This document shows, in pieces, positions 21,084 to 59,200 of a stretch of DNA of 64,000 nt (the first letter of the stretch is position 1; every line of letters begins with the position of its first letter). The stretch spans positions 1-64,000 of the forward strand of contig NZ_CANMRQ010000008.1 in the NCBI RefSeq assembly GCF_947500325.1. The letters run 5' to 3'. This stretch comes from an uncultured Lacinutrix sp. Lineage in GTDB: Bacteria; Bacteroidota; Bacteroidia; Flavobacteriales; Flavobacteriaceae. The notes beneath the pieces were generated by a model. That model did no database searches. It had not been told where the DNA came from and saw only the letters and a list, made by a program, of their open reading frames with translations. A program made the translations under genes and the position numbers.

Positions 21084-22166
21084 TTATCCTTTTATAACTT
21101 TTTCTTGGTGATTAATCGATTCTTGGTGAATGGCCTTAAACATCTTTAAAATAAACTCTTCACTTAATCCTTTTTCTTCTCCTTGTAATACCATTTTACC
21201 AAGAATTTCATTCCAGCGTTTACTTTGTAATACGGCCACATTTTTACGTTTTTTAAGTGCTCCAATACCATCTGCTACTTGCATACGTTTCCCCATTAAA
21301 TCAATTAATTGGTTGTCTACAACGTCTATTTGCGCTCTTAAATTTGTAAGTTCTTTATTATACTCTGCTTCAGGATCTGTTTCTTTTCTAATACGTAAAT
21401 CTTCCATAATTTGTACTAAACGCTTAGGTGTTACTTGTTGTGCAGCATCACTCCATGCATTATCTGGGTCGACATGTGTTTCAATCATTAACCCATCAAA
21501 ATTCAAATCTAAAGCTGTTTGAGAGACATCAAAAATCATATCTCGTTTACCAGTAATATGAGAAGGATCATTAATTAATGGTAAATCTGGAAATTTAGTC
21601 TGTAACTCAATTGCTATTTGCCATTCTGGATTATTTCTATATTTAGATTTTTCGTAGGTTGAGAAACCTCTATGAATAACGCCTAATTTTTTAATATCTG
21701 CAGAAGCTAATCGTTCTATAGCTCCAAGCCATAATGGTAAATCTGGATTTACTGGATTTTTTACTAATACAACTTTATCTGTTCCTTTTAAAGCATCTGC
21801 TATTTCTTGAACAATAAATGGACTTACTGTAGATCGCGCACCAATCCATAACAAATCTATATCATGTTCTAAAGCTAATTCTACATGTGCTCTATTAGCA
21901 ACCTCTGTTGCTGTCATTAATCCTGTTTCTTCTTTTACTTTTTGCAACCATTTTAAACCTAATGCTCCAACGCCTTCAAAATTCCCTGGTCTCGTTCTAG
22001 GTTTCCAAATACCTGCTCTGTAGTAGCTAACATCTGTGTCTTTAAGTTCATGTGCAATTTTTAAAACTTGTTCTTCAGTTTCTGCACTGCATGGACCAGC
22101 GATTACTAATGGATGATTTAACTTCAAATCATCTAACCATGTTCTTAATTCTTTTTTATTTTCCAT
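21084..22166 (-). CDS. Bifunctional DAHP synthase / chorismate mutase
   Basis: Fusion of 3-deoxy-7-phosphoheptulonate synthase (about 1-260; VIAGPCSAE, WKPRTRPGNFEG, HRGFST) with a C-terminal AroQ-type chorismate mutase (about 270-355; LRAQIDVVDNQLIDLMGKRM). One protein thus catalyses both the entry step of the shikimate pathway and the first step from chorismate to Phe/Tyr. An upstream ATG at 22181 is possible; the start at 22166 (MENKKELRTWL) fits the family better. Last gene of the attenuated operon. Prephenate or chorismate feedback through the mutase domain is plausible from related fusions. Confidence 0.93.
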   Translation of the reverse strand: MENKKELRTWLDDLKLNHPLVIAGPCSAETEEQVLKIAHELKDTDVSYYRAGIWKPRTRPGNFEGVGALGLKWLQKVKEETGLMTATEVANRAHVELALEHDIDLLWIGARSTVSPFIVQEIADALKGTDKVVLVKNPVNPDLPLWLGAIERLASADIKKLGVIHRGFSTYEKSKYRNNPEWQIAIELQTKFPDLPLINDPSHITGKRDMIFDVSQTALDLNFDGLMIETHVDPDNAWSDAAQQVTPKRLVQIMEDLRIRKETDPEAEYNKELTNLRAQIDVVDNQLIDLMGKRMQVADGIGALKKRKNVAVLQSKRWNEILGKMVLQGEEKGLSEEFILKMFKAIHQESINHQEKVIKG

Positions 22167-22208
22167 TTTATTAATTTTCAAACATTTTAGACCTAACTAA
22201 AGATGTTA

Positions 22209-23063
22209 TTATTTTATTCCGTTTAATATTTGTTTTATATAATTGGTATCTTTCATTTCATTATAAACACCTTCAAAATCATCATTCTCAATAAGCTCTT
22301 TAAATTGTTCAAGATTAGATATGTAATCTTCTAGTGTTTCAATAACATTATCCTTATTAAGTTTAAAAATTGGCGCCCACATAGCTGGTGAGCTTTTTGC
22401 TAAACGTACTGTACTTTCAAATCCACTACCAGCCATATCGAAAATATCACGTTCGTTTTTTTCTTTTTCAATAACTGTTTTACCTAACATAAACGAACTT
22501 ATATGAGATAAATGGGACATATAGGCTATATGCTTGTCGTGAGATTCGGGATTCATATAGCGCATACGCATACCTATATTTGAAAAGAGATTAAGAGCCT
22601 TTTCTTGCAACTTAAATGCTGTTTTTTCAACCTCACAAACAATATTGGTTTTGTGTTGAAACAAATCACGAATTGCTGCTTTAGGACCAGAAAATTCTGT
22701 ACCTGCAATAGGGTGCATGGCTAAGAAGTTTCTTCTCTTTTTATGGTTTTCTACAACCTTACAAATATGAGATTTTGTAGACCCCACATCCACAACCAAT
22801 CCAAAATCTGAAATTTTATCTAAAACTTCAGATAATATTCTAACAGTAGCATCTACTGGTATTGCAATAACTACTAAATCGGCTTTATCTAAATCTTCAA
22901 TTGTAGCTTTTTCATCTATTACTCCTAATTCCAAGGCTTCATTAAGATGTGCTTGGTTATTATCAATACCAAAAATTGTTGACTCCGGTTTTTTATGCTT
23001 AATATCTAAAGCTAAACTACCTCCAATTAATCCAACACCAATTATATATATATTACTTATCAT
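22209..23063 (-). CDS. tyrA: Prephenate dehydrogenase TyrA
   Basis: NAD-dependent oxidation of prephenate to 4-hydroxyphenylpyruvate, the tyrosine branch. 284 residues: Rossmann motif GVGLIGGSLALD, then HPIAGTEFSGP and HLSHISSFML. No chorismate mutase or ACT domain is attached; the mutase is on the downstream DAHP synthase. The start overlaps the aminotransferase stop by 4 bases, so it is translationally coupled. Confidence 0.94.
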   Translation of the reverse strand: MISNIYIIGVGLIGGSLALDIKHKKPESTIFGIDNNQAHLNEALELGVIDEKATIEDLDKADLVVIAIPVDATVRILSEVLDKISDFGLVVDVGSTKSHICKVVENHKKRRNFLAMHPIAGTEFSGPKAAIRDLFQHKTNIVCEVEKTAFKLQEKALNLFSNIGMRMRYMNPESHDKHIAYMSHLSHISSFMLGKTVIEKEKNERDIFDMAGSGFESTVRLAKSSPAMWAPIFKLNKDNVIETLEDYISNLEQFKELIENDDFEGVYNEMKDTNYIKQILNGIK

Positions 23064-24199
23064 ACTCTTGCTATTGCTTCTTCTATATCTTCTTCACTTG
23101 CACATAATGAAAAACGCACATAACCTTCGCCATTACTTCCAAAAACTGTCCCTGGAGCAATAAATATATAGTGTTCTTTTAATAATTTATCTATAAACGC
23201 TTCAGCTTTAAAGTGTGTTGGTAATTTTGCCCAAACGAATAAACCACAACTATCTTCTTGATAAGTACAATTTAGTTTTGTTGCTAGTTTCCAAATCAAT
23301 TTACGTCTTTGCTCATAGACATTATTTAAACTTAAGAACCAAAGCTTACTACATTTTAAAGCTTCAATAGCTCCTTTTTGAATGCCATAAAACATACCTG
23401 AATCCATATTACTTTTTACTTTTAATATGGCATTAATATACTCGTACTTCCCTAAAACCATACCTACTCGCCAACCAGCCATATTAAAAGTTTTACTTAG
23501 AGAATTTAACTCTAAACAAACCTCTTTTGCGCCTTCCACACTTAATATACTTTGTGGTTTATTATTTAATATAAAGCTATAAGGGTTATCATTAACTAAT
23601 AGAATATTATGCCTTTTTGCAAACGCTATTAATGCTTTAAAGTTTTTTAAATTGCCTTTAGCGCCTGTTGGCATATGCGGATAGCTAATCCACATTATTT
23701 TTACTTTAGACAAATCCTTCTTTTCTAGATCCTCAATTTTTGGGCACCAATTATTACCTTCATTTAAGTCATAAAAAATAGGTTCTGCTTCTAACAATCT
23801 AGTTACAGACGTATATGTTGGATATCCTGGATTTGGAATGAGTACTTGATCTCCAGCATTTAAAAATGCCATTGAAATATGCATAACACCTTCCTTACTA
23901 CCCATTAAAGGTAAAACCTCTGTAGTATCATTTAAAAAAACATTAAAATGCGTTCTATAAAACTTTGTTATAGCCGATCTTAATTCTGGTAAACCTTGAT
24001 AGCTTTGATATTTATGAGCATTACTATCACTCATACTTTCTTTAATCACTCTTATCACTTGACTTGGTGGTTGTAAATCTGGACTACCAATACCCAAATT
24101 AATAATGGGTTTACCACTAGCTTTAAGAAAATTAACTTCTTTTAGTTTCTTGGAAAAATAATACTCCTCAACACTATGTAATCTTTTTGCGAATTCCAT
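23060..24199 (-). CDS. Class I PLP-dependent aminotransferase (aromatic branch)
   Basis: 379 residues of aminotransferase fold type I. The Schiff-base lysine lies in NSLSKTFNMAGWRVGM; other motifs are PNPGYPTYT, WISYPHMPTGA and the C-terminal RFSLCASEEDIEEA. Its place between prephenate dehydratase and prephenate dehydrogenase suggests transamination of phenylpyruvate and hydroxyphenylpyruvate, or possibly of prephenate. The sequence alone does not fix the substrate. It overlaps both neighbours by 1-4 bases. Confidence 0.88.
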   Translation of the reverse strand: MEFAKRLHSVEEYYFSKKLKEVNFLKASGKPIINLGIGSPDLQPPSQVIRVIKESMSDSNAHKYQSYQGLPELRSAITKFYRTHFNVFLNDTTEVLPLMGSKEGVMHISMAFLNAGDQVLIPNPGYPTYTSVTRLLEAEPIFYDLNEGNNWCPKIEDLEKKDLSKVKIMWISYPHMPTGAKGNLKNFKALIAFAKRHNILLVNDNPYSFILNNKPQSILSVEGAKEVCLELNSLSKTFNMAGWRVGMVLGKYEYINAILKVKSNMDSGMFYGIQKGAIEALKCSKLWFLSLNNVYEQRRKLIWKLATKLNCTYQEDSCGLFVWAKLPTHFKAEAFIDKLLKEHYIFIAPGTVFGSNGEGYVRFSLCASEEDIEEAIARV

Positions 24200-25026
24200 T
24201 AGAGTTTAGCGTTTTTATATTCACCTAAAATTTTAAAATGTGTTGCCATAATATTTATAATTTCTTTTGCCTTTTCAAAGTGACTATACTCTTGAAAAGT
24301 GACATCTACAAAAAACGAATACAACCATGGTGTTTCAATCTTGGGTAATGATTGTATTTTAGTTAAGTTTAATTTACAATCACTCATTACATTAAGTATA
24401 GTTGCTAAACTGCCTCTTTTGTGATCGAGTTCAAATTTTAATGAGGCTTTATTTATTTCTGTCTTTTCAATTTCTGCATGATTTCTTTTTACTACTGCAA
24501 ACCTCGTTTCATTATGTTTAATAGTTTGTATACTCTCTGCTAATATCTCTAGATTAAAAATACCTGCAGCTAAATAACTAGCTATTGCTGCAATTCCATT
24601 TATTTTTTCTTCAGAAATACGCCTCGAAACCTCAGCCGTATCTTTTGCTTCAACTAACTTAATATGAGGATACTTTTTAAAGAATACTTTACATTGCAAT
24701 AATGCCATTGGATGAGAATGCACTTCTTTTATATCTTCAATACTTTGATTAGGCAATGCCATTAAATGATGTTGAATATCTAAATAATGCTCACCTACAA
24801 TATGAAGGTTATTATTATCTATTAATGCGTAATTAGGTATAATAGAACCTGCTATAGAATTCTCTAAAGCCATAATAGCCGCATCTGTTTTACCATGTAA
24901 TAATGTGTTGACTGTATCGTCAAAAGACAGGCATTCATCTACTAAGGTATTAGCACCAAAATAGTCTTGCGACACGATATGGTGAAATGATCCTTTTACG
25001 CCTTGGATAGCTACATTTTTTTGCAA
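24199..25026 (-). CDS. pheA: Prephenate dehydratase PheA
   Basis: Converts prephenate to phenylpyruvate, the phenylalanine branch. 275 residues: periplasmic-binding-like catalytic domain (about 1-175; GSFHHIVSQDYF and the catalytic NETRFAVV) followed by an ACT domain (about 190-265; FELDHKRGSLATIL, KIQSLPKIETPWLYSFFVD) for Phe feedback. The family's ESRP-like ACT motif appears as KIETPW. First structural gene of the operon, lying behind the leader peptide and attenuator. Confidence 0.95.
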   Translation of the reverse strand: MQKNVAIQGVKGSFHHIVSQDYFGANTLVDECLSFDDTVNTLLHGKTDAAIMALENSIAGSIIPNYALIDNNNLHIVGEHYLDIQHHLMALPNQSIEDIKEVHSHPMALLQCKVFFKKYPHIKLVEAKDTAEVSRRISEEKINGIAAIASYLAAGIFNLEILAESIQTIKHNETRFAVVKRNHAEIEKTEINKASLKFELDHKRGSLATILNVMSDCKLNLTKIQSLPKIETPWLYSFFVDVTFQEYSHFEKAKEIINIMATHFKILGEYKNAKL

Positions 25027-25069
25027 ACCGAACTTATTTTTTTAGATGTTAAACTTATTTAAACAAAAA

Positions 25070-25135
25070 AAGTCTCGATAAAAATCGAGACTTAGTTTTA
25101 AATATATATTTTACAATTACATATATAGCGTCTCG
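25070..25135 (-). promoter_or_regulatory. Transcription attenuator of the Phe/Tyr operon
   Basis: Terminator: on the minus strand AAGTCTCGA (25093-25085) pairs with TCGAGACTT (25078-25070) and is followed by a run of seven T. Antiterminator: CGAGAC (25135-25130), inside the 3' end of the leader peptide gene, can pair with GTCTCG of the terminator's 5' arm, and flanking ATATAT blocks can lengthen this pairing. The two structures are mutually exclusive. Ribosomes stalled on the aromatic codons upstream should leave CGAGAC free and allow read-through into pheA. A clear anti-antiterminator (1:2) stem was not found. Confidence 0.8.
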
Positions 25136-25200
25136 TTCCTTTTGTTAAAAAAGAAATAAAACCAACTAAAATATGTGTTTTGTATTGTTTTCATATTCAT
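25117..25200 (-). CDS. Aromatic-rich leader peptide of the pheA operon
   Basis: Short frame of 27 codons with stop, starting MNMKTIQNT and containing YFSWFYFFF: eight aromatic residues (five Phe, two Tyr, one Trp) in nine positions, then another Tyr near the end (TLYM). A second ATG lies two codons in. A promoter-like pair lies just upstream (25232-25261) and the terminator just downstream. The aromatic run ahead of an aromatic biosynthetic operon marks it as a regulatory leader peptide; the peptide itself probably has no function. Confidence 0.8.
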   Translation of the reverse strand: MNMKTIQNTYFSWFYFFFNKRNETLYM

Positions 25201-25231
25201 TATTCGCTAATACGAATATCTAATTATAATG

Positions 25232-25261
25232 CTAAAGTAAATAATAAATTGATATAACAAA
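25232..25261 (-). promoter_or_regulatory. Putative promoter of the Phe/Tyr operon leader
   Basis: On the minus strand TTTG (25261-25258), 18 bases, then TACTTTAG (25239-25232), one mismatch from the Bacteroidota -7 consensus. It would start a transcript about 25 bases before the leader peptide ATG. Confidence 0.5.
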
Positions 25262-25365: not shown

Positions 25366-26259
25366 ATGTCTATAAAAGTTAAAAACATATCGAAGATTTA
25401 CGGCGAACAAAAAGCCTTAAACAATATCTCTTTTGAAATTGAAAAGCCTGAAATTGTTGGTTTTTTAGGTCCAAATGGTGCTGGAAAATCTACAATGATG
25501 AAAATTTTAACCACTTTTATTAGTCCAACTGAAGGTGAAGCAGAAGTTAATAACCACTCTATTGCTACAGCGGCAAAACAAGTACAGCAAAGTGTAGGTT
25601 ATTTACCAGAGCACAACCCATTATATTTAGAACAATATGTACGGGAATATTTAGCATTTAATGCTAATGTCTATAATATTAGTAAATCTCGTATTGAAGA
25701 GGTTATAACACTTACTGGTTTATCTCCAGAGTCTCATAAAAAAATAGGGCAACTCTCTAAGGGTTATAGACAGCGTGTTGGTTTGGCAAATGCTTTATTA
25801 CACAATCCAGATGTTTTAATTCTAGATGAACCCACTACTGGTTTAGACCCAAACCAATTGGTAGATATTAGAAATTTAATTAAAACTATTGGTAAAGAAA
25901 AAACAGTATTTCTATCTACACATATTATGCAAGAAGTAGAAGCGATGTGTGACCGCGTTATAATAATTAATAAAGGTGAGATTGTTGCGAATAAAAAATT
26001 AAAAGAATTACGAGAAGGCCAAGAACAAATTGTTATTGTAGAATTTGATTACCGTGTTGAAGATGCTTTTTTATTAAAACTACCAAACGCGAAAAGTGTT
26101 ACTAATACTCACGATTTTATATACGAAATCACTTTTTCTACTACACAAGATATGCGTTCCCATGTCTTTGATTTCGCTCATGATAATGAACTAAAGATTT
26201 TACAGCTTAACCAAAAGTATGCTAGTTTAGAAAGTATGTTTAGGGATTTGACTAGTTAG
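25366..26259 (+). CDS. gldA: Gliding motility ABC transporter ATP-binding protein GldA
   Basis: 297 residues. Complete ABC ATPase: Walker A GPNGAGKST (about 36-44), Q-loop, signature LSKGYRQRVGLANAL, Walker B VLILDEPTTGLDP, H-loop STHIMQEVEAMC. A C-terminal region of about 80 residues is typical of GldA. In flavobacteria GldA works with the membrane proteins GldF and GldG, which are not in the window, in a transporter needed for gliding. It is transcribed alone here and lies divergent from the Phe/Tyr operon. Confidence 0.92.
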   Translation: MSIKVKNISKIYGEQKALNNISFEIEKPEIVGFLGPNGAGKSTMMKILTTFISPTEGEAEVNNHSIATAAKQVQQSVGYLPEHNPLYLEQYVREYLAFNANVYNISKSRIEEVITLTGLSPESHKKIGQLSKGYRQRVGLANALLHNPDVLILDEPTTGLDPNQLVDIRNLIKTIGKEKTVFLSTHIMQEVEAMCDRVIIINKGEIVANKKLKELREGQEQIVIVEFDYRVEDAFLLKLPNAKSVTNTHDFIYEITFSTTQDMRSHVFDFAHDNELKILQLNQKYASLESMFRDLTS

Positions 26260-54116: not shown

Positions 54117-57100
54117 TTAATTATTTTTTTCTGTTAATCTTAGAATATCACCAAAAACACCTCTTGCTGTAACTGAAGCTCCAGCACCAGCACCTTGAAT
54201 AACAATAGGGTTTTCCCCATAACTTTCTGTATATATTTCGAATATTGAATCTGCACCTTTTAAAGCTCCAAGTGCTGATTGCTCAGGAACAGACACTAAT
54301 TTCACATCTAATTTAGCTCCATTATCATCTGCCAGATCACCATATAAATCCCCAATATATCTTAACACATGATTTGGATCTTGTTGCTCTTTTTTCTTTT
54401 GAAAAATTGGATTTAACGTATGCAATGATTCCAAAAATGCTGAAGTTTCTATAGTCCGTAAATTTTCAGGAATTAAGTTTTCTACAGACACATCACTTAA
54501 ATCGTTATGTAAATCTAATTCTCTAGCCAAGATTAATAATTTTCTTGCTACATCATTACCACTTAAATCTTCTCTAGGGTTTGGTTCTGTATACCCTTTA
54601 TCTAAAGCTTGTTGTAACGCTTCTGAAAACAAAATATCTTCTGAAGAAAACGTATTAAACAAATAACTTAAAGACCCAGAAAACACACCTCGAATACGCA
54701 CTATGTTTTCTCCCGACAAATGCAATAGCTTAATGGTATCTATTAAGGGCAAACCGGCTCCAACATTAGTTTCATACAAGTATGATTTTTGGTATTTCTC
54801 TAAGGTTTTACGTAATTTATTATAGAATTCTAGATCAATAGTATTGGCTATTTTATTTGAAGACACCAAATCGAAACCTGTTTCTACTAATTGAATATAG
54901 TTAGAAACAAACTCTAAACTAGACGTATTATCAATAGCTATTAAATTTTCTAAATGATTAGATTTTGCATATTCAAAAACATCTTCTATTGTATAATTTT
55001 CTCCTTCATCATTAAGATCGTTTTCCCAGTTTTTATTGATTCCTTTTTTATTTAGCAATATTTTTTTAGAATTTGCAATTGCAAAAATATTTAGTTTAAT
55101 GCCTTTTCTTTTTTCAATATCTTCTGCAGAAGCTATAATTTGATTAATGAGTTCACTACCAACCAAACCATGTCCAAAAATAGCAAGGTTTATCTTTTTT
55201 GAAATACCAAAAATTTCACCATGCATGACGTTTAACGCTTTATGCAACTGCTCTTTTTTAAGTACTATACTTACATTTTCTCCAGTAATAGTATTATTAA
55301 ATAACAGAGGTGTTATTTGATTTTTAATTAAAGCATTAAATGGTTTATGAAACGTACTTAATTCTTGACCTACAATTGATATAACCGAAACATCATCTAT
55401 AACATTAATCTTGTTAATGTCCTGCGAATAGAAATCGTTTTCAAATTCTTTCTCTAATGCAATTACTGCTTTAGTAGCTTTATTTGCATCTATAACCAAA
55501 CCTATTCCTCGTTCTGAAGAGCCTTGTGATATAATACTAACACTAATATCTTCGTTACTTAAAGCCTTAAAAATTCTTGCGTCGACACCAACTTTCCCCA
55601 ACAAACCACGTCCTTCAATATTTACTAAGGCTACATTATCTAAAACGGATAATGAGCGAATACCATTAGCGTTATTTTGAGAGGTAATAATAGTGCCTTT
55701 ATCATCAGGATTAAACGTATTTAATATGCGAAGCGGAATGTTTTTTTCTATTAATGGAATAATAGTTTTAGCATGTAAGATGGTTGTTCCAAAATTTGCA
55801 AGCTCATTCGCTTCTGTAAATGATAATCTTTCAATTTTTCTGGCATCTGTTACTAAATCGGGGTTTGCGGTGTAAATTCCATTTACATGCGTATAATTCT
55901 GTAACTCTTCTGCATTTAAATAGTTTGCTAATAATGACGCTGTATAATTACTTCCATTTCTACCTAAAGTCGTTGTTTTATTATCTTTATTAGAAGCTAT
56001 AAAACCTGTTACAATATTTACTGTTGTTCCATTATTTTGTTTAAAATAATCAACAACATTTTTCTTAGATATAGCATCATTAGGTTTAGCATTACCAAAA
56101 TTATCATCAGTTTTAATAAGAGCTCTAGCATCTGCAGCTTTAGCGTTTATATTTTTGTCTTTTAATAAAGCAGAAATTAATTTGGCCGAAATTAATTCGC
56201 CTTGCGCCAAAACTTCATCTTTTATTTTTTGATTATAATCACCTAATAACTGGACACCTTCAAATAAACTATCTAATCTTGAAAATTCTTGAGACAAATC
56301 TGCATTAGTCAATAAATTTTGATAGTCTTTAAAGGCTTTTAATTGTTCTTGATAGTTTTCATTTTCTAAAGCTTTGTCTAGAATAGCTTCTAATTCATCT
56401 GTTGCTTGTCCTCTTGCTGAGACAACCACTGCAATATTTTCTTTCGCTTTTACTTTATTTTCTATTATAGAAATTACTCGGTTTATACCTTCGCCATTAG
56501 CTAAAGATTTACCACCAAATTTTAATATTTTCATTCTTTTTTCTTTTGATTCCGGATTAAAAATGTCTTTAATAATATTTTCTAGCTGTTCGAATTCAAT
56601 TAAAAAAGCATCATGACCATGAATAGAATTTATCTCGTTGTAAGTAACATTAGGATGTGTTAATGCTAACTGTTTTTGTGTTTCTCTATTTTCTTCTGCT
56701 GTAAAAAACAAATCAGAATCTACAGCTACAATTGTTATTTTAGATTGTATACTATCTAAGATGTTTTCACTATTTTCTCTCCCTTTAGTAACATCAATTG
56801 TACGCAATAATTGGTTCATTAATTTATATGCAGATAATTGAAAACGTTCTTGTAATTTCTTACCATGATGTAATAACCAACTCTCTACATTAAACAATTC
56901 TAACACCTCGTTTTTTGAACGTTGAAAACGTGATTTAAAAGATTCTGGCGTTCTATAACATAGCATAGCATGCATTCTTGCATCATGAACAGGGTTATTA
57001 GAATTAGTTAAAAACTGCTCTTGAATTTGACAATTTGCCATTAACCAATCTGTAGATTTCCAATCTGTTGCTACAGGTATTAAATGCATAGAAAGATTTG

Positions 57101-58907: not shown

Positions 58908-59049
58908 TTTTCTAATTTTTTTGAGTTAATTAAATGAGTGCTTATAAAAAAGCACAATTAAACCAAAAGTCAAATCAGCCTCGAAAGGCATATTTAATAG
59001 AAAAATGTTATAAGAAATATACGTAACTACAGATGGGTGATTACGTTTG

Positions 59050-59170
59050 GTTATCTATCCGAAATAGCAAAAAATGACTTGCGCATTCAAGTAGAATTTA
59101 GCACCTTCTTAGTAAATCTAAGGGTTGCTAAGGTTTCATAGGGTCTAATCCCTCCACCTTTCTTGATAAC
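59050..59170 (-). promoter_or_regulatory. SAM-I (S-box) riboswitch
   Basis: Read on the minus strand the aptamer shows the S-box landmarks in order: GTTATCAAGA (P1 5' strand), GGTGGAGGGA, GACCCTATGAAACC, TTAGCAACC, then AAGGTGCTAA, and a closing GATAAC (59055-59050) that pairs with GTTATC (59170-59165). It precedes metY, a classic SAM-controlled gene. Between the aptamer and the ATG (58908-59049) there are two small stems (58978-58989; 58938-58955), but no convincing intrinsic terminator, so the expression platform is unclear and may act on translation. Confidence 0.95.
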
Positions 59171-59200
59171 ATTTCAATAAAGCTTTGAACTTTGTGAGCA

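Follow-up and report, generated by a model that had tools for sequence, protein, structure and literature searches.

Leader-peptide attenuation is a classical mechanism of transcriptional control and needs a ribosome that travels close behind RNA polymerase. The enterobacterial pheA and pheST leaders combine a Phe-rich leader gene with alternative antiterminator and terminator structures, and pheA is also the first gene of the operon described here. A single leader can read more than one of the amino acids made by the operon under its control, as in the E. coli ilvGMEDA and thr leaders. Candidate attenuators in Bacteroidetes/Chlorobi are reportedly mentioned in the abstract of a 2004 article by Vitreschak (FEMS Microbiol Lett).

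Within the family, the main-text section of an earlier study names for Flavobacterium psychrophilum a structured 5' element ahead of pheA that is conserved in other Flavobacteriaceae genera, and it describes strong clues that leader-peptide attenuation acts in front of flavobacterial operons for amino-acid biosynthesis (PMC9723704). Because that section lists both, this kind of element is already known, and the original prediction, which had called classical attenuation less documented in Bacteroidota, is to be corrected as to novelty, a flavobacterial mechanism having already been hinted at in print. The F. psychrophilum element precedes the same gene in the same family as the element studied here and is likely the same element; neither a peptide nor segments nor a mechanism is described for it in the main-text section. 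Among the open-licence papers listed by the literature searches, no other dealt with a Bacteroidota pheA leader. To what is known, comparison of sequences would add a sensor of three amino acids, an antiterminator that changes together with its terminator, a spacing rule and the spread of the element.

The element studied here is very probably a ribosome-mediated transcription attenuator of the operon encoding PheA, an aminotransferase, TyrA and a DAHP synthase-chorismate mutase. It differs from the enterobacterial Phe leaders in that it would read all three aromatic amino acids and in that tyrA and DAHP synthase belong to its operon as well. The enterobacterial model Phe_leader (Rfam RF01859) scored 18.7 bits against a cut-off of 55 and matched only the terminator part (25064-25117). 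The likeness to the E. coli ilvGMEDA and thr leaders, which read Ile/Val/Leu or Thr/Ile instead of three aromatic residues, lies in the logic.

Locus and leader peptide gene

On the minus strand of the window (the whole 64,000-nt stretch of DNA analysed), the leader frame sits between pheA and a divergent gene on the plus strand (25366-26259), which was named a putative ABC-transporter-like ATPase gene from its sequence. Pfam matches confirmed the four downstream genes expected to be controlled together, all on the minus strand: pheA, encoding prephenate dehydratase (24199..25026, with a TTG start in the ORF list; PF00800, E 1.5e-52), a class I/II aminotransferase gene (23060..24199; PF00155), tyrA, encoding prephenate dehydrogenase (22209..23063; PF02153 and PF20463), and the DAHP synthase-chorismate mutase fusion (21084..22181; PF00793 and PF01817). 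The closest named relatives belong to Lacinutrix, with pheA identity of up to 84%. This gene order was kept in 79 of the 80 nearest loci, the 80th showing pheA and the aminotransferase gene only.

The leader peptide gene, MKTIQNTYFSWFYFFFNKRNETLYM, occupies 25117..25194 of the minus strand including its stop codon and would encode 25 amino acids, a type of peptide that is also found in relatives. A frame of 27 residues, the length first proposed, does exist from an in-frame ATG at 25200, two residues further upstream, and runs to the same stop ending at 25117; the 25-residue form is likelier because the start in relatives aligns with ATG 25194. Codon listing verified that eight of the nine codons of the predicted sensing run, YFSWFYFFF (25147..25173, minus strand), are aromatic. 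The operon had been called a Phe/Tyr operon; besides codons for Phe and Tyr, the leader contains one for Trp. Across 212 leaders (see below), Phe and Tyr occurred in all 212 and Trp in 160, so that all three residues were found together in 160/212. The Trp codon fits the operon because the latter includes DAHP synthase, the enzyme that feeds all three aromatic pathways; stalling for lack of any of the three would therefore make sense. The 212 scoring leaders comprised 196 distinct peptides, and among close relatives a core, TY-x-x-W-FYFFF, was conserved at the residue level.

A promoter-like pair, as originally proposed, lies just upstream and consists of a predicted -33-like box, TTTG (25258..25261, minus strand), assigned from the Bacteroidota-type consensus, and a predicted -7-like box, TACTTTAG (25232..25239, minus strand), which we take to be a Bacteroidota -7 box (consensus TAnnTTTG). 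The promoter would presumably be of the Bacteroidota type, unlike those of enterobacterial pheA leaders. In 192 of the 212 loci, the pattern TAnnTT(T/A)G was present in the 70 nt that precede the leader ATG, compared with 527 of 4240 simple shuffles. The distance from its end to the ATG was 10-20 nt in 155 of these 192 loci, with a median of 16 nt; in the window, 37 nt separate the box from ATG 25194. Since the start codon lies at a median of 16 nt past the box, the 5' untranslated region of the leader mRNA may be only about 10 nt long.

Terminator and antiterminator

The original prediction of a perfect terminator with a T run was borne out except for its stem, which has 10 bp and not 9. This stem is formed by AAGTCTCGAT and ATCGAGACTT (25093-25084 / 25079-25070), and the T run ends at 25065. 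By sequence, therefore, an intrinsic terminator lies between the leader and the first structural gene. We refer to AAGTCTCGAT (25084..25093, minus strand) as segment 3, which is common to the antiterminator and the terminator, and to ATCGAGACTT with the T run (25065..25079, minus strand) as segment 4, the terminator end, whose core was matched in 81 of 81 aligned regions. Segment 2, CGAGAC (25130..25135, minus strand), is the 5' side of the antiterminator and starts 11 nt past the last Phe codon; it lies inside the leader frame and is complementary to GTCTCG (25091-25086) in the 5' arm of the terminator, as had been noted. A search with the exact pattern GTCTCGATN{0,8}ATCGRGA returned a single occurrence in the 4.57-Mb genome, which was unique in the window too and ruled out that the terminator is a common genomic repeat.

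We folded the window element with an assumed front footprint of 12 nt for the ribosome. When segment 4 was left out and the ribosome was placed in the aromatic run, the antiterminator formed, and it was also obtained in the RNAalifold consensus of 63 sequences folded without segment 4. Moving the ribosome to the stop codon left the terminator as the sole structure. When segment 4 was included, the terminator was the minimum-energy fold at every ribosome position tried, stalled positions among them, and the switch must therefore depend on the order of folding during transcription. Such dependence is usual for attenuators.

These parts suggest the following course of events. A ribosome would follow RNA polymerase along the leader gene and, if charged tRNA-Phe, tRNA-Tyr or tRNA-Trp were short, would stall in the aromatic run with its front edge ending just before segment 2 (CGAGAC), which would thus be left free. 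Free segment 2 would pair with segment 3 (GTCTCG), the 3:4 terminator would not form, and the operon would be transcribed. With plentiful aromatic amino acids, the ribosome would reach the stop codon and cover segment 2, so that 3:4 would form and transcription would stop near 25065; read-through would change between the two conditions.

Spacing of the segments and a possible protector hairpin

Analysis of 212 loci revealed that the best pairing segment starts 7-14 nt past the last aromatic codon in 208 of them, compared with 216 of 1060 shuffled segments, with a mode of 11 nt (109/212 loci). This distance is approximately that to the front edge of a ribosome whose A site holds the last aromatic codon. 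The commonest distance from the start of segment 2 to the stop codon is 16 nt (76/212), so that a ribosome positioned on the stop codon would cover the segment; across all 212 loci, the start ranged from 31 nt upstream of the first base of the stop codon to 9 nt downstream of it. The loci thus carry, with positional exceptions, an antiterminator that would exclude the terminator and that would be freed by a stalled ribosome and covered by one at the stop codon.

A protector hairpin (1:2) could form between segment 1, UUUCUUUU of the Phe codons, and AAAAGGAA just before CGAGAC. It has an energy of -8.0 kcal/mol in the window, where it appears in the ribosome-free fold, and it is also seen in the RNAalifold consensus of 63 sequences. 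Compared with synonymous recoding, it reached p<=0.05 in only 1 of 77 loci, a comparison that is weak where early-ending frames cut the test window at the stop; compared with swaps, the figure was 21 of 196 loci, hardly better than the swaps themselves. The hairpin is thus present in the folds but not supported against chance in either comparison, and evidence for it is mixed. The third codon of FYFFF was TTC in 75 and TAC in 2 of 77 close loci, giving a wobble C in all 77, whereas Phe was encoded by TTT 62 times and by TTC 8 times in five window genes (the four of the operon and one neighbour). A C-G pair in the 1:2 hairpin would account for the fixed wobble C, as would a requirement to interrupt a long run of U.

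Co-change of antiterminator and terminator

In the alignment of 63 close sequences, 98.1% and 100% of the cells of the two stems were paired and no two-sided change was seen. Such near-invariance is expected because one segment must fit two partners, and the evidence for co-change therefore rests on more distant loci. There, a different terminator sequence is accompanied by a matching difference in its complement at the end of the leader gene, in support of the alternative stems predicted from the window. The window pair CGAGAC/GTCTCG is replaced elsewhere by CGGGAC/GTCCCG, TCAGGATT/AATCCTGA and GAGGCTTT/AAAGCCTC, and further distant loci carry AGCGGGA/TCCCGCT, CCGGGTT/AACCCGG, GGCAGGA/TCCTGCC and others. 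The mean duplex energy between segment 2 and the terminator arm was -11.0 kcal/mol for a locus's own pair and -6.8 kcal/mol for swapped pairs, and the own pairing ranked in the best 5% of swaps in 155 of 212 loci but not in the other 57. Among 135 distinct loci outside the nearest-80 set (window included), at least six contiguous Watson-Crick pairs were found in 89 own combinations, compared with 628 of 11918 swaps; the longest own complement was shorter than six pairs in 46 of the 135. The arm read GTCTCG in 56 of these loci and differently in 79, and 52 of the 79 showed at least six own pairs.

Co-change also weighs against the idea that the frame encodes a small stable protein or membrane peptide, whose short transcript the terminator merely ends. 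A frame with its own promoter-like box and with the TY-x-x-W-FYFFF core conserved in close relatives would suit such a product. Its aromatic residues, however, vary in order among lineages, every counted frame lies upstream of pheA, and the part of the peptide that follows the aromatic run varies from lineage to lineage along with the terminator sequence. A protein would need no end complementary to a terminator. We therefore consider a small protein very unlikely, and the attenuator remains the preferred reading.

Occurrence of the leader compared with chance

To score leaders automatically, we used a detector that required an ATG frame of 10-45 residues with at least six aromatic residues (F/Y/W) in nine and a terminator within 80 nt. 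It was applied to 278 pheA upstream regions, consisting of the window, the 80 nearest loci, 57 loci (L084-L140) and 140 further stretches. An aromatic frame with a terminator was detected in 212 of the 278 regions, compared with 1 of 2780 dinucleotide shuffles, and an aromatic frame alone in 228, compared with 43 of 2780 shuffles; in the 16 loci that make up the difference, no terminator was scored automatically. These counts are not independent events, because the loci are mutually related and some are present in both collections (L012 and L113, for example, carry an identical leader). As controls, other stretches of the window gave a frame in 11 of 633, none of them with a terminator, and flank stretches of the relatives gave a frame in 37 of 2543, one of them with a terminator, which proved to be the leader of locus L057 itself. 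When the 412 nt upstream in the window were dinucleotide-shuffled 3000 times, 72 of the shuffles gave at least six aromatic residues in nine, 2 gave at least eight, and 1 gave a frame with a terminator.

The excess of aromatic frames over shuffles, like the spacing tied to the last aromatic codon, argues against an incidental frame in front of a terminator that is controlled through a protein- or ligand-binding leader RNA (a riboswitch, a T-box or the target of an RNA-binding protein). Such an RNA would agree with the structure of the element and the terminator at its end, and also with the structured pheA 5' element of F. psychrophilum, which is given without an Rfam hit in the main-text section of PMC9723704. 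No Rfam family, riboswitches and known leaders included, reached its gathering score in the region, and no T-box was among the Rfam matches listed for it; control of this kind is accordingly highly improbable, and ribosome-mediated attenuation accounts for both the frame and its spacing.

Elsewhere in the window, a SAM riboswitch (RF00162, 77.6 bits) was detected on the minus strand at 59048-59172, with a homoserine dehydrogenase domain (54141-54749) downstream on the same strand.

Spread across relatives

Among the 80 nearest loci, the frame was found in 78 and the terminator core in all 80, in agreement with the conservation that the original prediction had called for. In the two exceptions (L013 and L014), the frame is cut by the contig end, and its remaining part and the terminator are visible. 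In a sample of the same family, pheA was matched in 108 of 119 genomes, of which 100 scored automatically. The eight misses comprised two loci with the leader further upstream (L128 and L185), four in which leader and terminator were recognised by eye (L147, L183, L202 and L208), and two with no leader within 500 nt upstream of pheA (L196 and L205). In L128, a 110-nt repeat that contains a CCCGC.../...GCGGG hairpin occurs three times within the 400 nt preceding pheA, and the leader is located near position 957 of the locus.

All figures on spread cover only genomes with a pheA match. Within the order but outside the family, frames were found in 3/3, 1/1 and 3/3 regions of families f2, f3 and f9, respectively, and in 4/5 regions of family f15 (with 5 or 6 aromatics); the single region of family f12 had no frame. 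In the class sample outside the order, 47 of 49 pheA matches were taken in: 30 showed an aromatic frame, 22 of these also with an automatically scored terminator, three members of family f31 had a weaker TYFWFYP frame, and 14 were other misses. The 13 regions of family f5 showed no ATG aromatic frame. Neither was one present upstream of pheA in family f16 (L105-L112; 8 of 13 genomes looked at), whose genomes of 0.6 Mb suggest reduced insect symbionts, as if attenuator control had been lost with reduction. In one of these loci (L107), a TTG frame with seven aromatics in nine overlaps the pheA start and has no terminator.

Other leaders in the same genome

The same genome contains MNFIQLHHHHFHTCNQAS before hisG, MNTNLNHTWWWNSRNTIRE before trpE and MKKQIVNIISIIVIVIISQG / MKLVNSIIIIIVIINST before ilvD. 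All of these leaders, rich in His, Trp or Ile/Val codons, have a terminator-like hairpin downstream and are candidate attenuators. A hydrophobic aromatic run could be translated slowly for other reasons, yet attenuation by general stalling (slow translation, (p)ppGpp or cold) in place of Phe, Tyr and Trp tRNA charging is most improbable, as each of these leaders matches the product of its operon.

His-rich leaders were observed before hisG in 8 of 8 loci, the one in L286, which belongs to the same genome as the window, containing HHHHFH. Before trpE, L310, also of this genome, has a Trp leader with WWW and a terminator-like hairpin downstream; among L310-L317, the same WWW-type peptide was present in 6 of 8 loci, L317 had a different peptide with WWW, and L316 showed no such leader. 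On the reverse complement of L303, two tandem Ile/Val-rich leaders start at 978 and 1115 just upstream of ilvD (80421-81374, outside the window), each with its own terminator-like hairpin, and they are apparently two successive ribosome-dependent attenuators. When the two best frames per locus were considered in 8 other ilvD loci, four (L302, L304, L308 and L309) had one such leader, and the other four showed no leader with a good terminator. No aromatic frame was found up to 350 nt upstream of pheS in 9 loci, and no thrA leader was found in L290 and L295, two loci in which the sequence available before the gene was about 350 nt long.

Implications

We tentatively raise the possibility, which we regard as rather doubtful, that the element represents a reduced design of attenuator, old in the class, which senses Phe, Tyr and Trp together, works independently of a protector hairpin and uses the front edge of the ribosome as its ruler. 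The appearance of the 1:2 hairpin in both the ribosome-free window fold and the consensus fold counts against it. If the design were true, an untranslated leader would antiterminate, in contrast to the E. coli trp leader, which terminates when untranslated, and translation would need to be tightly coupled to transcription. The phylum mostly lacks Shine-Dalgarno sites.

An attenuator of this kind would explain how a single operon that supplies Phe, Tyr and Trp is adjusted to a shortage of any one of them, and its features give annotators a means of recognising such leader genes. The same attenuation logic, with its co-changing parts and spacing rule, at one operon in many families of the class would make transcription-translation coupling in the phylum directly testable by simple reporters.
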